Source of the DNA: Dehalococcoidia bacterium
GTDB taxonomy: Bacteria; Chloroflexota; Dehalococcoidia; Dehalococcoidales; BS750m-G39
DNA length: 56,043 nucleotides
NCBI GenBank assembly: GCA_030608005.1
Contig: JAUWIX010000004.1
Location: 1-56,043 of the forward strand
Reading direction: 5' to 3'
Below the pieces are notes generated by a model. The model was not told where the DNA came from. It saw nothing but the letters and a program-made list of their open reading frames with translations, and did not search any database. Position numbers and translations under genes: made by a program. Of the stretch, positions 17,470 to 34,975 are shown one piece after another (positions within the stretch are counted from its first letter, which is position 1; every line of letters starts with the position of its first letter).

Positions 17470-17556
17470 GAACCCTATCCCCCTTAATCCCCCTTCCCCT
17501 TACCAAGGGGAAGGGGAAGGATAGTTTCTTTAGAGGGGCTTCGCCCCTCTAAAACT
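17470..17556. repeat. Composite palindromic intergenic element, copy 5
   Basis: ccctatcccccttaatcccccttccccttaccaaggggaaggggaag + tagaggggcttcgcccctcta. Confidence 0.8.
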
Positions 17557-17707
17557 CCCAATCTTGTTGTTATGCTTTTTATGCAGAGTGTCGTTTGAAG
17601 CGATTAGAGTGTGGCACTACCTACCGTGTGAAGCTAGTCTCTTACGCTGATAGGTGCTTTGTCTAGCAGAGGGTAGCCAAAGCAAATAAAATTTTGATCA
17701 TTGGGCA

Positions 17708-18250
17708 CTATCGTGTTCTTCCTTTCTCGCCCAATATGATATTAGTCCACCCCTCTAAGCTACGGTCTCCCTTTTGGTTCCATTGGGGTATCTTCAATTT
17801 CTTGGATAGTTCTTCTGTAGGCAACAGAATCAAACGTTGCATAAGAGGAGCAATAGATTTCTGTCTGGAGGTTTCTCTAATTTGAGGAAGACCGCAATCC
17901 GATGCAAAAGCCTTGACATCACGTATGGTGGGCAAAACGCTCTTCGTCTGTAGAGCATCGTAGAAAGCTGAGATAAGTTCATACTTCTGTGGTTCGGTCT
18001 CTTGGAGAAGCGCTAAGGTTTTCTCTATCAATGTTACAGTTTTTTTCTTAGTGGCTTTTCCCGTAATTGGGGTCTCTCTGGCTATCCTCGCACCAGTTGA
18101 TAACAGATGAGTTAGTTTTTTCATAAGGTCAGTTGATCGACTGGAATTTGCCAGAATTTCAAAAGGTTCTGGCCCGTACTTCCTTATGAGCCTTGCCAAA
18201 TCTACCAATAAATCTAACTCAGGGCGGTCTTTTTCAAGGGGGGTTTTCAT
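17708..18250 (-). CDS. Hypothetical protein, second gene of a parA operon
   Basis: 180 aa; ATGA overlap with the parA-like gene indicates translational coupling. No recognised domain. Confidence 0.8.
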   Translation of the reverse strand: MKTPLEKDRPELDLLVDLARLIRKYGPEPFEILANSSRSTDLMKKLTHLLSTGARIARETPITGKATKKKTVTLIEKTLALLQETEPQKYELISAFYDALQTKSVLPTIRDVKAFASDCGLPQIRETSRQKSIAPLMQRLILLPTEELSKKLKIPQWNQKGDRSLEGWTNIILGEKGRTR

Positions 18251-19095
18251 AGTCCTATCCTATCCGCAAATTCCTTTGCGAAACTATGGAACTTTTGAGC
18301 TTGATCCCATCTAGAGTAAGATGTTCTAAATATTGGTTTACCCTCACGTGCTCCTTTGGGATATGACCTAGAATAGCTGACTTCCGCCTTAAACACATAC
18401 CATCCATGCTTTTTCGCCTCAGCCTTAACCTCTGCTTTGGATGTTGCCTCCTCAGGCACATATTGAGTGGTAGAATTAAAAACTATTCCGGCAAGTTCCA
18501 AGTTGTGGTCTTCATGATGCGCATGGAATTCAGCCATTGAGCGAACAAGTAATGGCAAGCCTATAGTAGATAAGTATTCTGGCTTAACAGGGACGAGTAT
18601 ATAATCACTCGTTAGATAGGCAGCCATCGTTAGAAACGACTCAGTAGGAGCGCAGTCAAGAAGGATGAGGTCATACTGGTCATCAATCTTTGACACGAAT
18701 TTAGCAAGTAACCCTTCCTTCTGGCCTGGGTTCATCAACGAGTAAGCTAGTTCCAGGCGTGAAGGTATTAGGTCAATGCGACTTCCGTCACGAAATGTTA
18801 CAACATTGTTTATCACATTAGCGAGGTCTAGTGCTTTTAGCCCCTTACTGTCTGGAGTTCGTGTGAGCTGTTCGAAAATATCCCAAACCGTTGGTCTCCC
18901 TTCGTCAAGAATTTGCTTTACCTTTGCTTGCCCTACAAGATACTGAGTCGCATTGAATTGAGGATCTAGATCGATTACCAGTACCTTTTTCGACCAATTA
19001 GGCATTGCAGTGAATTGCCACGCCAGATTAACGGCAAGTGTTGATTTCCCGACACCGCCTTTCATATTTATGAGCGAGACCTTCTTCGCCATCAT
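18247..19095 (-). CDS. ParA/Soj-family ATPase
   Basis: KKVSLINMKGGVGKSTLAVNLA (deviant Walker A), VLVIDLDPQFNATQYL, YDLILLDCAPTESFLT. Confidence 0.93.
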   Translation of the reverse strand: MMAKKVSLINMKGGVGKSTLAVNLAWQFTAMPNWSKKVLVIDLDPQFNATQYLVGQAKVKQILDEGRPTVWDIFEQLTRTPDSKGLKALDLANVINNVVTFRDGSRIDLIPSRLELAYSLMNPGQKEGLLAKFVSKIDDQYDLILLDCAPTESFLTMAAYLTSDYILVPVKPEYLSTIGLPLLVRSMAEFHAHHEDHNLELAGIVFNSTTQYVPEEATSKAEVKAEAKKHGWYVFKAEVSYSRSYPKGAREGKPIFRTSYSRWDQAQKFHSFAKEFADRIGL

Positions 19096-19115
19096 TAACC
19101 CCCTTTGAATACCCT

Positions 19116-19143
19116 ATCCTAGACTTTCCATAAGTCTAGTCAA
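19116..19143 (-). promoter_or_regulatory. Putative parA promoter with operator-like inverted repeat
   Basis: On the minus strand: TTGACT (19143-19138), 16-nt spacer, TAGGAT (19121-19116). The perfect 8-bp inverted repeat CTAGACTT-atgga-AAGTCTAG spans 19119-19139. Confidence 0.6.
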
Positions 19144-19245
19144 TATCCCTTTTACTGTCAAATTATTCAGACGTTTGGTTAAACAAATAATCGACTCTAC
19201 GCTTTACGCTCTTCCCTTTATAAAGGACATATTCCTATAATAAAC

Positions 19246-20235
19246 TCACCCCAGCTTACCAGCCTCTTCTCTAACCAGGCGCCTTATTCTCTTATGAACC
19301 TCAATAACATCGTTTATATCTTTTCTGCCCGATAGCCAGTGAAAATAGCCCCCATCCCCTTTACCCCCCCATTTCTCTTTGTATTTCACTATTTTCTCCA
19401 CCCCCCCTCGATGACCTTTCTGCCACGCAGTTAATACCTCTGTCAGGTCACTGATGAGTGTAGAGGCTAAGCCCATAGTTGAATAGGGCAGGGCATACTC
19501 ATTAGCATTAAAGGCAATGGCTACCCCCCCCGCCTCCTCCACTGCCTGAAGCATCCTGAAATCGGTAATGCTATCTCCTACCACCACCCACTTAGATAAA
19601 GGCTGGTCATAGGCATTAGCAAATCTGGTTAAAGCGGCTACTTTACGCCGTCCCCCCATTGGCTTCACCTCTTTTATTGCCGCCCCCAGGTCGGTAGCCG
19701 GCAGTTTCTCCCAGAAGAAGTTATCCAGGCTTTGCTTAATTCGGTCATCATCAGCAACTGGGCGCATGGTCAGCATATCTTCCTCGGCCTGCTGTAGTAG
19801 TTGGGAGTCTTCTTGACATAAAGTTGCTCGGAACTTATTCAGGGGGAAGGGGGTGCAAGCAACATTATGGGCGTAAATACCTAATTTTTGGGTAATATGA
19901 ATGGCATATTGTTCGTAAGTGGTGGTGATACAAAATACTTTCCAGCCATTATACTGAAGCCAGGACACAAGCTTGGTTGCACCACCGATTAAGCCGGCTT
20001 CGGCAGCTAGAGTGGCGATGTTAGCCTCTGAAATATTATGGAGGATGAGGAAAGGCACTATAAGAGCTAGAGTATCCCCCGGCTCATAGTCTTCCCTTTC
20101 CTCCAGCGTCAGCAGGTCATCGTAGCGACTGATAACCTCAAAAATCCTATCGCCGTTGGGGAAAAGCTTCATTAACTCATAGGCATTATCCTGAGGTGAT
20201 AGTGGTCCTTCAAGGTCAAAACAGATAAAGTTCAT
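19246..20235 (-). CDS. HAD-superfamily phosphatase-like protein (COG4030-like)
   Basis: NFICFDLEGPLSPQDNAYELM and VVVGDSITDFRML, with substrate-handling region between. Confidence 0.75.
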   Translation of the reverse strand: MNFICFDLEGPLSPQDNAYELMKLFPNGDRIFEVISRYDDLLTLEEREDYEPGDTLALIVPFLILHNISEANIATLAAEAGLIGGATKLVSWLQYNGWKVFCITTTYEQYAIHITQKLGIYAHNVACTPFPLNKFRATLCQEDSQLLQQAEEDMLTMRPVADDDRIKQSLDNFFWEKLPATDLGAAIKEVKPMGGRRKVAALTRFANAYDQPLSKWVVVGDSITDFRMLQAVEEAGGVAIAFNANEYALPYSTMGLASTLISDLTEVLTAWQKGHRGGVEKIVKYKEKWGGKGDGGYFHWLSGRKDINDVIEVHKRIRRLVREEAGKLG

Positions 20236-24278: not shown

Positions 24279-25250
24279 TTATCCCACGCCCAGACGACAT
24301 TGGAAAACTATATGTTCGCCATTCCGCTTGTGATGAATGGAGAGCACCTTAAGGTCACTAGTCTCTGAACGTAATTTCTCCTTAAGCTGCTTTGTGGAAG
24401 GGCTTGCTTGTAGAATAAGATTAAAACTACTATCTGAAATTTCAGGATAAAAGGTGCTGTGGGGATTTCCTTCGGGATGCACCTCTGCCATAATCCTTAG
24501 ACGTGGTCGTACCGAAGCTCCTTCTATAATCTGAGACGCTGCTATTATAGTTTGATCTGTAATATGGGAGAGAGCTTCTTCAACTTGTTTAAGAGTTTCT
24601 GGGGGTATCGTTATTGCCTTTCTTTGTAAATGACCTCTTAGAACATTTAAAAACATTTGGTTAATAAGATGCTCTTTTGGCATCGTCTCGAAGAAAGAAC
24701 CATCAATTATAGAAACCTTTACTCTCTCATCATTCTTATAAGTTCTTACCAGATAAAATGCTCTTCTTTGATAAGCATAATAACTTTCAGTCTTAGCGAG
24801 TTCGCCATCTTTGATAGCGGCTATTCTCGAAACAAGGTTAGTGCCATTAATTACATCTATCTCCTCAAGGCTTTTATATTTAGTGGGAAGTGTTGAGTTA
24901 AAGGAGGCTATGCTTCCACTTTTTGAATCCTTTAACTCTAGCAAGCTTCCGCAGGTTAGTTTGTTCTCATAATTTATTGCCTTGAATAAAAAATCAGGGA
25001 ATTGTTCTGATTTTGAGTATAAAAGTCTTTCGTCTATTCCCTGGCTCTTAAGCCAGCTTTTATTTAGGTTGCTCCAGAAGTCGTGCTTATATTTTTGATA
25101 TGTGTCCCTTCGATTATCAATATAAGCCAGATTATTTCTACTTGCCTCTAAGACCATCTTCTCCAAAGGGGAGTGAAGAGTAAGCATTTTCTTCCTTAAA
25201 CTATTCGTTACTCCAATGAAAAGCTCTGTAATATCGGCAAATTCATACAT
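24279..25250 (-). CDS. Putative type II restriction endonuclease (PD-(D/E)XK-like), partner of adjacent methyltransferase
   Basis: SEQFPDFLFKAINYENKLTCGSLLELKDSKSG (PD-x(n)-ELK). ATG at 25250 overlaps the methyltransferase stop (ATGTATGA). Confidence 0.7.
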   Translation of the reverse strand: MYEFADITELFIGVTNSLRKKMLTLHSPLEKMVLEASRNNLAYIDNRRDTYQKYKHDFWSNLNKSWLKSQGIDERLLYSKSEQFPDFLFKAINYENKLTCGSLLELKDSKSGSIASFNSTLPTKYKSLEEIDVINGTNLVSRIAAIKDGELAKTESYYAYQRRAFYLVRTYKNDERVKVSIIDGSFFETMPKEHLINQMFLNVLRGHLQRKAITIPPETLKQVEEALSHITDQTIIAASQIIEGASVRPRLRIMAEVHPEGNPHSTFYPEISDSSFNLILQASPSTKQLKEKLRSETSDLKVLSIHHKRNGEHIVFQCRLGVG

Positions 25251-26127
25251 CAAAAAGCCTCCCTTGCTCACTAATAGTTGCTTCCTCGACCGGCCAAATT
25301 TCTTTCAAATTTGGCGTGAAGCTATAGTAAGTGTAATAATGAAGAACACTATCGGCAGGTCTCAGCGATTTTAAACGCATTTTACTGATTCTGACATGCT
25401 CAGGGTCTATTTCTATGCCTATGGAGTTTCTCATTAATTGATGAGCAACAATCAAAGTAGTTCCTGTTCCAGCAAGGGGGTCAAAAACTGTATCTCCGGA
25501 TAGGGTAGAGGATAAAATTATCCTTAAAAGTAAAGCAACAGGTGATTGCTGTGTATGAACCCTGTTTCCCTTGCTATCTCTTAGTGCTTCGTCTCCTGCA
25601 AAATACCCTGATGTCAATTCTCTGATATCATCCCATATATCTGTAACATAAACTCCGTTAGTTCTTTCATACTTATACTCCGGCAAGAGTGGTAGGTCTA
25701 TGCGCAATTTATTAAATACTCTTGGCTTATATCCTTTAGTGGCATAAGCTATAATTTGATGTTGTTTAGAGAATCTAAATTCACTTGGAACTGCAGAGGT
25801 TTTCTTCTTCCAAATAATCAAATTCTGAAATGTCCAGCCTGTTTCCCTGAGCAGCTTTAATACTTGTTCAGCGTTCTTCTCTCTTTGCATGAAATAAATA
25901 GCTCCTCCCTCCACCGTCGCCTTGTAAACTTCTGACAAAATCTGTACTAACCAAGCCCAGTATGTATCATCAGACTGGTTATCATCAAAGAACCTGTATT
26001 CCTTACCTTGCCTATAAGGGGGGTCAAGAAAAGTAAGGTGAATATCGCTTATAGAGCCTTTGCTGAAGTATTCAAGGCAATCTCCCTCTAGCACTTGGCT
26101 ATATGTAGTTGTCCTACTTATTGTCAT
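25243..26127 (-). CDS. DNA methyltransferase, beta-class amino-methyltransferase (DPPY then DPLAGTGTT)
   Basis: SDIHLTFLDPPYRQGKEYRFF and GDTVFDPLAGTGTTLIVAHQLMRNSIGIEIDPEHV. ATG at 26127 (MTISRTTTYSQVLEGDCLEYF) is the likely start. Confidence 0.92.
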   Translation of the reverse strand: MTISRTTTYSQVLEGDCLEYFSKGSISDIHLTFLDPPYRQGKEYRFFDDNQSDDTYWAWLVQILSEVYKATVEGGAIYFMQREKNAEQVLKLLRETGWTFQNLIIWKKKTSAVPSEFRFSKQHQIIAYATKGYKPRVFNKLRIDLPLLPEYKYERTNGVYVTDIWDDIRELTSGYFAGDEALRDSKGNRVHTQQSPVALLLRIILSSTLSGDTVFDPLAGTGTTLIVAHQLMRNSIGIEIDPEHVRISKMRLKSLRPADSVLHYYTYYSFTPNLKEIWPVEEATISEQGRLFDV

Positions 26128-26146
26128 CTTTTGCTCTACCCTTAAC

Positions 26147-28273
26147 TTACTTCCATTCACTATTTCGTGTCAATTTGCCTTTATACTCACATTTAGTGCA
26201 TTTTGCCCAGTTTCTCTGGTATGTGGTGAGGAGTCCACCACACTTGGGGCAGGGCTGGGGGAGGGGTCTAAGATTGGTGGCAAACTGGCAATCAGGGTAG
26301 TTGCTACAACCGTAAAAGGTGCGCTTCTTTTTGCTCCGCTTCTCCACCAGCTCACCACCACACTGCGGACATTTAACCCCAAGCTTGACCTGAAAAGATT
26401 TGGTATATTTGCACTCAGGGTAGCCACTACAGGCTAAGAACTTCCCAAAACGCCCGAATTTGACTACTATAGGCTTGCCACATTCAGGGCAAATTTCCTC
26501 GGTTAGCTCCTCTAACTTCACCTTCTCCATAAGCAGGGAGGCGTTCTGCAGGCTCTTGTCAAAGGGTGTATAGAAATCTTGAACCACCCCCACCCAATTC
26601 TTGTTTTCATTGGCTACCTTGTCTAGTTCCTCCTCCATATGAGCGGTAAATTCAATGTTAACGATGTCAGCAAAATATTTGTTGAGCAGGTCATTGACCA
26701 CTATACCTAGCTCCGTAGGCTGAAAGCTGCCGCCAGCCTTGGTGACATACTCCCGCTCCTGAATGGTGGACAGGATGGGAGCGTAGGTGCTGGGACGCCC
26801 GATACCCCATTGTTCCAACATCTTTATTAGTGTGGCTTCGGTAAAGCGTGGTGGGGGTTTGGTAAAATGCTGCTCAGGGAAAAGCCCCAGAAGCTCAAGC
26901 TTATTGCCCTTCTCTAACTGGGGAAGGGTAGAGATTCTCTTCCCTTCTTCAGCTTCATCTTTCCCCTCGGTATAGAGAACCATAAACCCGGGAAACCTGG
27001 TAACAGAGCTGGAAGCTCTTAGCAGATAGTTGGCTTTAGAATAGGGGCGTCTGGCTTGAATATCAACGGCGGTATTATCAAAAGTCGCTGCTGACATCTG
27101 GCTAGCCACCATTCGTTTCCAGATGAGCTGGTAAAGCTTAAATTGGGCATCGGTAAGGTGTGGTTTAAGCAGGGAGGGCTCCCGCCAGATTTTAGTGGGA
27201 CGGATAGCTTCGTGAGCCTCTTGCGCCCCCTTTACAGTTCTGGTGAAGGAACGGGCATGCGATGGAGCAAACTGAGAGCCATACTTATCAATAATAAATT
27301 CTCTGGTTTCAGCAATGGCTGAGCGGGCTACCCTGGTGGAGTCGGTACGCATATAGGTGATGAGCCCTACACTCCCCTCATCGCCTATAGGGAGACCCTC
27401 ATAAAGCTCCTGAGCCACACGCATAGTTAGTTTGGCGGTGAAGTGGAGTTTGCGCCATGCCTCCTGTTGTAGCGTGCTGGTTATAAACGGTGGCGCCGGC
27501 TGGCGGGTTACCTTTTTGGTGCTTACTTTGATAACCTTATAGCTGGCTTGTTTTAGCTCATCACCGAGTTCAGTCGCTTCTTCCTCGGTATGAATATCTA
27601 TCTTGGTGCCATCGGTAAGACCAATCAGCATGGCTCTAAAAGCTGTCACCTCGGCAGAGGGTGTTTTCTTGGCTAACTCAGCCTCAATAGTCCAGTACTC
27701 CACCGGGATAAATTTCTCAATTTCCCTCTCACGGTCAACAATAATCCTTAGTGCCACCGACTGAACTCTACCTGCTGACAGACCCCTCCTTACCTTCTGC
27801 CAGAGTAATGGGCTGAGCTTATAGCCTACCAATCTATCCAGGACACGCCTCGCCTGCTGGGCATTGACCAATTGCATATCTATAGAGCGAGGATGGTCAA
27901 AGGCACGCTTGATAGCTTCCTTGGTTATTTCGTGAAAGATGACACGGCGGTAGGGTATGCGGTTCCATTTTGTCACCTCGGCTAGATGCCAGGAGATAGC
28001 CTCCCCCTCGCGGTCTGGGTCTGTGGCTAGATACACTGTAGAGGCAGTTTTAGCTGCCTGTTTAAGCTCGTTTACAATCTTACTTTTCGCCCTCGGCACC
28101 ACATATTTAGGGGCAAAGCCCTTTTCAATGTTTACCCCTAGCTGGCTCCTGGGCAAGTCTCTTACATGACCCATTGAGGCTTTGAGGCTATAGTTACCGC
28201 CTAACAGCTTACTCAGCGTTCTGGCCTTAGCCGGCGACTCAACTATAACTAAATTTTTCTTCCTCGTCCTAAT
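26147..28273 (-). CDS. topA: DNA topoisomerase I (no canonical start codon at expected N-terminus)
   Basis: TOPRIM start RKKNLVIVESPAKARTLSKLLGGNYSLKASMGHVRDLP read upstream of the first ATG (28174). Also DPDREGEAISWHL, GLITYMRTDSTRV and C-terminal zinc-finger repeats. Upstream bound is the in-frame TAA at 28282-28280. Confidence 0.93.
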   Translation of the reverse strand: MRTRKKNLVIVESPAKARTLSKLLGGNYSLKASMGHVRDLPRSQLGVNIEKGFAPKYVVPRAKSKIVNELKQAAKTASTVYLATDPDREGEAISWHLAEVTKWNRIPYRRVIFHEITKEAIKRAFDHPRSIDMQLVNAQQARRVLDRLVGYKLSPLLWQKVRRGLSAGRVQSVALRIIVDREREIEKFIPVEYWTIEAELAKKTPSAEVTAFRAMLIGLTDGTKIDIHTEEEATELGDELKQASYKVIKVSTKKVTRQPAPPFITSTLQQEAWRKLHFTAKLTMRVAQELYEGLPIGDEGSVGLITYMRTDSTRVARSAIAETREFIIDKYGSQFAPSHARSFTRTVKGAQEAHEAIRPTKIWREPSLLKPHLTDAQFKLYQLIWKRMVASQMSAATFDNTAVDIQARRPYSKANYLLRASSSVTRFPGFMVLYTEGKDEAEEGKRISTLPQLEKGNKLELLGLFPEQHFTKPPPRFTEATLIKMLEQWGIGRPSTYAPILSTIQEREYVTKAGGSFQPTELGIVVNDLLNKYFADIVNIEFTAHMEEELDKVANENKNWVGVVQDFYTPFDKSLQNASLLMEKVKLEELTEEICPECGKPIVVKFGRFGKFLACSGYPECKYTKSFQVKLGVKCPQCGGELVEKRSKKKRTFYGCSNYPDCQFATNLRPLPQPCPKCGGLLTTYQRNWAKCTKCEYKGKLTRNSEWK

Positions 28274-29432: not shown

Positions 29433-29815
29433 GATTGTTTATCCACCTCACCCCCTTAATCCCCCTCTCCATGATATGGATATGTATTCCTATCATGAGG
29501 GGGAGGACTGTTTTAAGAGGGGCTTCGCCCCTCTTCGACCCTTCTTTAAACCTTATCTCATACCAAGAGGAAGGTAATATCTTTGAAAGGCTGTAGCCCT
29601 TCTTAGTAAAACCCCCACTTTTATTTAGGGGAAATATGAATCTTTAAGGGAAGTATGAAGGGGCGTTAGCCCCTTCAAAAAATACAATTCCCCTTCCCCT
29701 TACTAAGGGGAAGGGGATAAAGGGGATAGGGTTTCCAATTATCAAAAGATAAAAAGTGGAGAGCCGGAAAGAGGCGAAGCCTCTCTTAGCCAGCTCATTA
29801 GGAGGACGGAGCTTC
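29433..29815. repeat. Composite palindromic intergenic element(s), copy 6 (long, multi-hairpin)
   Basis: Left end gattgtttatccacc; hairpins aagaggggcttcgcccctctt, aggggcgttagcccct, ttccccttccccttactaaggggaagggg, agaggcgaagcctct. Confidence 0.82.
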
Positions 29816-34794: not shown

Positions 34795-34975
34795 AGTAAT
34801 CCCTCCCTCTCCTTACTCTGGAGTAATAATTAAGGGGAGTTTTAGAGGGACTACGCCCCTCTAAAGAAATTACCTTCCCCTTATCAAGGGGAAGGGGGAT
34901 AAAGAAGGGGAAGGGGGATAAAGGGGGATAGGGTTACCAAATAAAAAACCTAAAAGGGGGTGAGGTTGACCCCCA
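34795..34975. repeat. Composite palindromic intergenic element, copy 7, between porG and porD
   Basis: tagagggactacgcccctcta, cttccccttatcaaggggaagggggataaagaaggggaagggggataaagggggatagggttaccaaat. Confidence 0.78.

Follow-up and report, generated by a model that had tools for sequence, protein, structure and literature searches.

A ParA-type ATPase and a fast-evolving partner protein in a Dehalococcoidia genome, with relatives mainly in prophage and island cargo

Two overlapping genes for a ParA/Soj-type ATPase and a small basic partner protein, located in the 56,043-nucleotide stretch of Dehalococcoidia DNA analysed here (the window), appear to represent a horizontally acquired and uncharacterised ParA-partner family whose sampled relatives are mainly prophage and island cargo, and which may serve the exclusion of phages or plasmids; this reading is given a probability of about 0.45. 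By sequence comparison, the family is a conserved mobile cassette that occurs in two- and three-gene forms in variable cargo slots. Exclusion of incoming phages or plasmids is its most likely role, which we infer from the defence genes that otherwise occupy the slots and islands housing the cassette and from GiPD474, a ParA-like ATPase of the Gifsy prophage that confers phage resistance (PMC12724215). Parts of the family are already known, being listed in PHROGs as of unknown function, and dyads of ParA/Soj and HEPN proteins were predicted in 2013 (PMC3710099). The freely available published papers that were searched describe neither the pair of ParA and partner nor the three-gene operon.

The gene pair

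The ATPase, of 282 aa (18247..19095, minus strand), and its 180-aa partner (17708..18250, minus strand) are encoded by open reading frames that overlap by 4 nt in an ATGA. The ATPase matches Pfam AAA_31 at 1.8e-35 as well as PHROG 164, and carries the deviant Walker A motif KGGVGKST, which includes the signature lysine of the ParA/Soj class (KGGVGK), together with a Walker A' motif (DLDPQ) and a Walker B motif (LILLDCAPT), all three being invariant across the aligned ParA relatives. Codon-position identities of 0.70/0.79/0.38 with the ParA gene of locus L016 mark it as a constrained protein. Two adjacent ATGs could serve as its start, of which the second (19092) has the better Shine-Dalgarno spacing, and a Shine-Dalgarno-like sequence upstream of parA, AAAGGGGG (19099..19106, minus strand), can be read directly from the DNA. 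Searches of Pfam, NCBIfam, PADLOC, PHROGs, and PDB sequences gave no significant match for the partner, whose calculated pI is 9.8 and whose net charge is +10. An earlier note on this DNA had described an ATGA-coupled ParA/Soj ATPase with a 180-aa basic protein that has no recognised domain and is not an evident ParB. The reading frames, the AAA_31 match and the pI bear this out, and neither ParB nor CopG is recognisable in the family searches. The GC content of the pair is 0.43-0.44, compared with 0.47-0.51 in its neighbours, and the 56 kb of housekeeping neighbourhood, in a draft genome that is 87% complete, suggests a chromosomal location.

Descent from a resident chromosomal ParAB system was considered and rejected: apart from the protein described here, no strong AAA_31 ParA occurs in the draft genomes of the host (G000) and 15 relatives, and ParB_N is matched in two of the 15 relatives and not in the host itself. 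As a separate observation, the absence of another strong Soj-type ParA and the few ParB_N matches in these drafts raise the possibility that the lineage segregates its chromosomes by means other than ParABS.

A variable slot between HAD and pfkB genes

The pair lies between a gene for a HAD protein, whose stop is at 19246, and one for a pfkB-family kinase, both conserved in relatives, in an interval that spans 17507..19245. Among 14 fetched relatives, the gap between the two flanking genes measures at most ~65 bp in eight (G027, G039, G004, G008, G022, G017, G030, and G006) and ~210 bp in one (G003), while the remaining five (G001, G005, G015, G024, and G040) carry other cargo there; the interval is thus a variable slot into which the pair was inserted. 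The cargo of G001 and G005 is a Cthe_2314-type HEPN gene, and the presence of this gene type in the slot (L125, at ~1221-1895, and L127) is itself suggestive of an accessory site. Only one sampled genome of the phylum has the pair, the ParA subfamily not being found, at the threshold applied, in ~350 genomes of that phylum, nor the partner in the 120 relatives searched.

The flanking pfkB and HAD genes agree with the earlier statement that the pair sits between unrelated housekeeping genes. The palindromic element noted on one side is present as well, though unrelated to the pair: it belongs to a palindrome-rich dispersed repeat of ~90 bp (17471..17559) that lies outside the cassette and has ~40 copies in the genome. 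Members of this repeat family also occur at positions 29690-29716 and 34835-34935 of the window and elsewhere, and several relatives have one where their HAD and pfkB genes meet. Another low-GC segment of the window (0.37-0.38; 24279-26160, minus strand), beside a topoisomerase I gene, encodes an N6/N4 DNA methylase and an adjacent, overlapping 330-aa protein without a family match, probably a type II restriction-modification pair.

Two-gene and three-gene relatives

The closest ParA, at 63% identity, is encoded at L016, on the contig of an enterobacterial P2-like prophage, and further relatives are found in a Sphingomonadaceae MAG (L003, 55% identity), a Rhodospirillaceae MAG (L004, 47%) and on the Sinorhizobium (S. 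meliloti) plasmid pSymA (L011, 39%), while a fragment at the end of a deltaproteobacterial contig (L005) is 70% identical to the window ParA over 83 residues. At L003, L004, L016, and L011, a partner of 170-188 aa follows ParA at a distance of -4 to +3 bp. In a tree of ParA sequences, which are a sample picked by similarity and not a census, the two-gene loci form one clade (support 100/99) with the three-gene locus L017 as its sister (98/86). The two genes are conserved together, the pair being shared by Chloroflexota-type, alphaproteobacterial, and prophage loci; the lack of co-conservation that the earlier note had named as speaking against its reading is not seen. Two other groups were tried as relatives and set aside, ParA-RHH-like loci of the same gene order (L007-L010) and a group of phage ParA proteins with an N-terminal helix-turn-helix-like segment (L052, L060, and their kin), both of which have different partners and fall into separate clades.

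When the window partner by itself served as query, no homologue turned up among plasmids, phages, or viral and genome contigs, and its relatives were reached solely through synteny with ParA. In the resulting 71-sequence set, phmmer matches the window partner to those of L003 (1.3e-6) and L016 (1e-4), and these two are linked to the partner of L017. In a search of 1636 ORFs, a profile built from other partners, no two-gene member included, matches the window partner at E=0.0034, with a score above those of all 2000 of its own shuffles. The two-gene and three-gene partner groups align in hhalign with a probability of 58%, whereas unrelated partners of ParA proteins reach ~1% at most; the weakness in sequence of this link between the window partner and the three-gene partners is a point against the exclusion reading. 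A single cluster takes in 39 of the 71 distinct partners, and in an alignment of 23 partners R129 is invariant and W168 near-invariant. The window protein has the features of the family, lying directly downstream of ParA and carrying both the conserved Arg (R129) and the C-terminal Trp (W168). Judged from these alignments, the partner is fast-evolving.

The AlphaFold2 model of the partner, computed from 23 sequences (mean pLDDT 76.8, pTM 0.50), consists of N-terminal helices (residues 9-59), a basic linker, a confidently predicted all-helical domain (74-152, pLDDT ~90) and a C-terminal helix bearing the conserved Trp (164-176), which is weakly predicted, the N-terminal part being uncertain as well. 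It has no significant fold match in the PDB or BFVD. A SAP-like or other DNA-binding fold had been suspected from the sequence pattern and is not claimed, the fold search having given no match.

A broad set of prophage-type loci of the family has the order ParA, a partner of 125-170 aa, and a third protein of 185-270 aa. Phage members match PHROG 164 (ParA) as well as PHROG 6264 (the partner) and PHROGs 7540/12265 (the third protein); no function is assigned to the latter three, and the window partner itself has no match to PHROG 6264. Most of the distinct third ORFs (31/46) form a single cluster; their product is predicted to be an all-helical bundle (pTM 0.85) in which R89, E93, and H157 are invariant, and the copy at L050 matches DUF5677. 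Its model has no significant fold match in the PDB, HEPN folds included, so that it is at most a possible HEPN-type nuclease. This third gene defines the three-gene branch alone, being absent at the window locus and across the whole two-gene clade, and the phage third protein has no match elsewhere in the 87% complete draft genome. The window pair thus shows no evident effector, which weighs against an exclusion role.

The three-gene relatives invite comparison with the ParA/Soj-HEPN dyads of the MAE_18760 family, proposed by Anantharaman et al. as a toxin-antitoxin type on purely predictive grounds (PMC3710099), since both combine in one operon a ParA-type ATPase and an all-helical protein, a candidate toxin in the dyads. 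The window pair might accordingly be half of a toxin-antitoxin system, the ATPase neutralising a HEPN-like RNase that has been lost here, leaving a solitary antitoxin or regulator. The helical third protein of most phage relatives with its invariant R, E, and H, the DUF5677 match of one member, and the position of three-gene L017 as sister to the two-gene clade are consistent with this, but the explanation is improbable: the two-gene clade spans several lineages, prophage and plasmid included, which is unexpected for an orphan antitoxin, and the third protein has no significant match to a HEPN fold. The dyads, moreover, use another HEPN family and have no intermediate partner described, and the HEPN RNase gene by which they are recognised is absent from the window locus together with the third gene.

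Loss of the third gene could also have left a functionless remnant of a horizontal acquisition, as its absence and the restriction of the pair to one sampled genome of the phylum might suggest. This is very unlikely, however, considering that both reading frames are intact, that the overlap, the Shine-Dalgarno sequence, and the conserved R and W are kept, and that the two-gene form without the third gene recurs in four other lineages.

The upstream region and partition as an alternative

Upstream of the pair, a perfect inverted repeat, CTAGACTT-ATGGA-AAGTCTAG (19119..19139), with arms of 8 bp around a 5-bp spacer (21 bp in total), fills the spacer of a promoter-like TTGACT-16-TAGGAT (19116..19143, minus strand), in which TTGACT starts at 19143 and TAGGAT ends at 19116. 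The perfect repeat that the earlier note had seen to overlap a putative -35/-10 spacer is therefore present, and a genome-wide search finds it to be infrequent, with one copy in the assembled 1.12 Mb when up to 2 mismatches are allowed. A repeat this good (arm >=8, spacer <=12) arises in ~2% of shuffles of the upstream 130 bp, and nothing comparable is seen at the same place in the close relatives. The promoter itself is a consensus match and plausible only, as promoter-like matches are no commoner in this region than expected by chance (2 found, 2.6 expected); a second candidate is TTGACA-17-TAGACT (starting at 19161, minus strand). A 12-base likeness between the window promoter and one in G040 was also considered and found no support in a pattern search of the host genome. 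It is reasonable, going by its sequence and position, to regard the repeat as a putative operator for autoregulation of the pair, and its location between the hexamers would allow repression of the operon by one of the two proteins.

The same features resemble type I partition systems (ParABS, ParFGH, delta-omega), which likewise combine a ParA ATPase, a small downstream partner, and an inverted repeat at the promoter. The main rival to exclusion is that the pair is the partition cassette of a mobile element stranded in the chromosome. The partner would then be an unusual ParB- or ParG-like adaptor that binds the centromere, and the inverted repeat would be that centromere or an operator. The sequence and motifs of the ATPase, the small basic partner downstream of it as in type Ib par loci, the placement of the repeat, and the PHROG annotation of this ParA family as 'ParA-like partition protein' all argue for partition, which is nonetheless held to be a possible but rather unlikely explanation. 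The partner has no ParB, RHH, or CopG similarity, and centromere sites usually comprise several repeats, whereas the window has a single 21-bp one that is neither part of an array nor conserved. Replicon genes are absent at the window locus, the pair family is located in integrated elements and chromosomes, and the reading frames are intact and not decaying. The L016 and L019 loci, furthermore, are single insertions in cargo slots of P2-like prophages, and the further protein of the three-gene relatives is not needed for partition.

Location of the relatives in cargo slots and islands

The pair at L016 lies between gpV and gpS in the tail operon of its P2-like prophage, in the orientation opposite to the late genes. 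This junction is empty in Fels-2 and occupied in SEN8 by an FRG gene matching PDC-S15, a candidate-defence family of PADLOC. The corresponding junction of RE2010 contains a 283-aa gene (L099:3463-4314) with no match in Pfam or PADLOC. The L019 locus adjoins gpQ, and the gpA-gpQ interval of P2-like phages is a hotspot of anti-phage systems (PMC9122126). L017 is located between terminase and portal genes, the operon of Lactobacillus phage LF1 adjoins the integrase, and the S. meliloti pair (L011) is found between integrase/AbiEii and SIR2-HerA genes. These relatives are in this way placed in cargo slots or defence islands. The L003 pair is flanked by ordinary chromosomal genes, which speaks against the exclusion reading. 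Two further points do so as well: no PADLOC model covers the ParA-partner family, and others have read genes of the gpA-gpQ hotspot as plasmid partition, about a quarter of phages carrying a 'putative plasmid partitioning system' there (PMC9122126), an annotation that also favours the partition alternative.

Cargo-positioning systems are generally built from a ParA ATPase and a dedicated partner that is not a ParB (PMC9178275), and a McdAB-, PpfA-, or ParC/ParP-like system spacing a protein body on the nucleoid might be envisaged for the pair. With no cargo gene nearby, a sporadic and mobile distribution, and relatives in phage cargo slots, this is the most doubtful of the explanations considered. 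The earlier note had left three options for the pair, among which a selfish or defence cassette fits best, since the relatives occupy cargo slots of prophages and adjoin defence genes; a plasmid-derived partition remnant is weaker, given intact reading frames and no ParB, repeat array, or replicon gene, and cargo positioning finds no support.

Possible mode of action and known ParA systems

Were exclusion its role, the ParA protein would dimerise with ATP and coat DNA non-specifically, as ParA/Soj proteins do, while the partner would bind it, possibly via the conserved C-terminal Trp helix, and regulate its ATPase activity while recognising a cue or the DNA of the invader. Switching of the ATPase would, in three-gene operons, control the third protein as a possible nuclease effector, and in the two-gene form the ATPase-partner complex itself would disturb the incoming replicon, much as ParI acts on IncP-7 plasmids. 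ParI is a ParA encoded on a genomic island of Pseudomonas putida that destabilises a foreign IncP-7 plasmid and needs its ATPase motif for this (PMC9178275). The ATPase of the pair would resemble it as a ParA-type protein that may destabilise foreign plasmids; unlike that ATPase, ParI is described as an orphan without a dedicated partner.

GiPD474 similarly is a prophage-borne ParA/AAA_31-type ATPase from a variable cargo region; in contrast to the pair, it is reported as a single gene near a cro/cII/repressor module with no partner described (PMC12724215). Its membership in the ParA-partner family is at best conjectural, which counts against the exclusion reading. The gp22 protein of ST160, of similar size and place, was considered as a stand-in for GiPD474 (WP_000368620.1) and not used; its motif reads KGGVSKT, and it is 24% identical to the window ParA.

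The usual label for ParA genes of prophages and islands is 'plasmid partition'. A large group of these genes has a dedicated, fast-evolving partner whose fold is not matched, often a third protein with invariant Arg, Glu, and His, and positions in slots otherwise used by defence genes, so that a testable reading is offered for many 'ParA' genes of temperate phages. If exclusion proves true, an immune system would be built around a nucleoid-bound positioning ATPase, and sensor and effector roles could be told apart by means of the two- and three-gene forms. An extended form of this proposal, more speculative and unlikely as it stands, is that of an unrecognised and widespread immunity family in which a ParA motor has a dedicated adaptor that detects or captures invading DNA, with the third protein as an optional effector and the two-gene form displacing or mis-segregating the invader without a separate toxin.

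The putative gpA-gpQ partitioning system (PMC9122126), compared by description, may be a ParA cassette in a P2-like cargo locus of the kind seen at L019 beside gpQ, while L081, a further ParA locus adjoining gpQ, falls into another family of partners. A separate family of phage ParA proteins, marked by the N-terminal helix-turn-helix-like segment (L052, L055, L060, L065, L066, L076, L077, L085, L090, and L091), has its own, different conserved partner of 126-156 aa, and a ParA frame at L004:3671-4804 is extended N-terminally by such a segment, similar to those of L052, L055, and L085.
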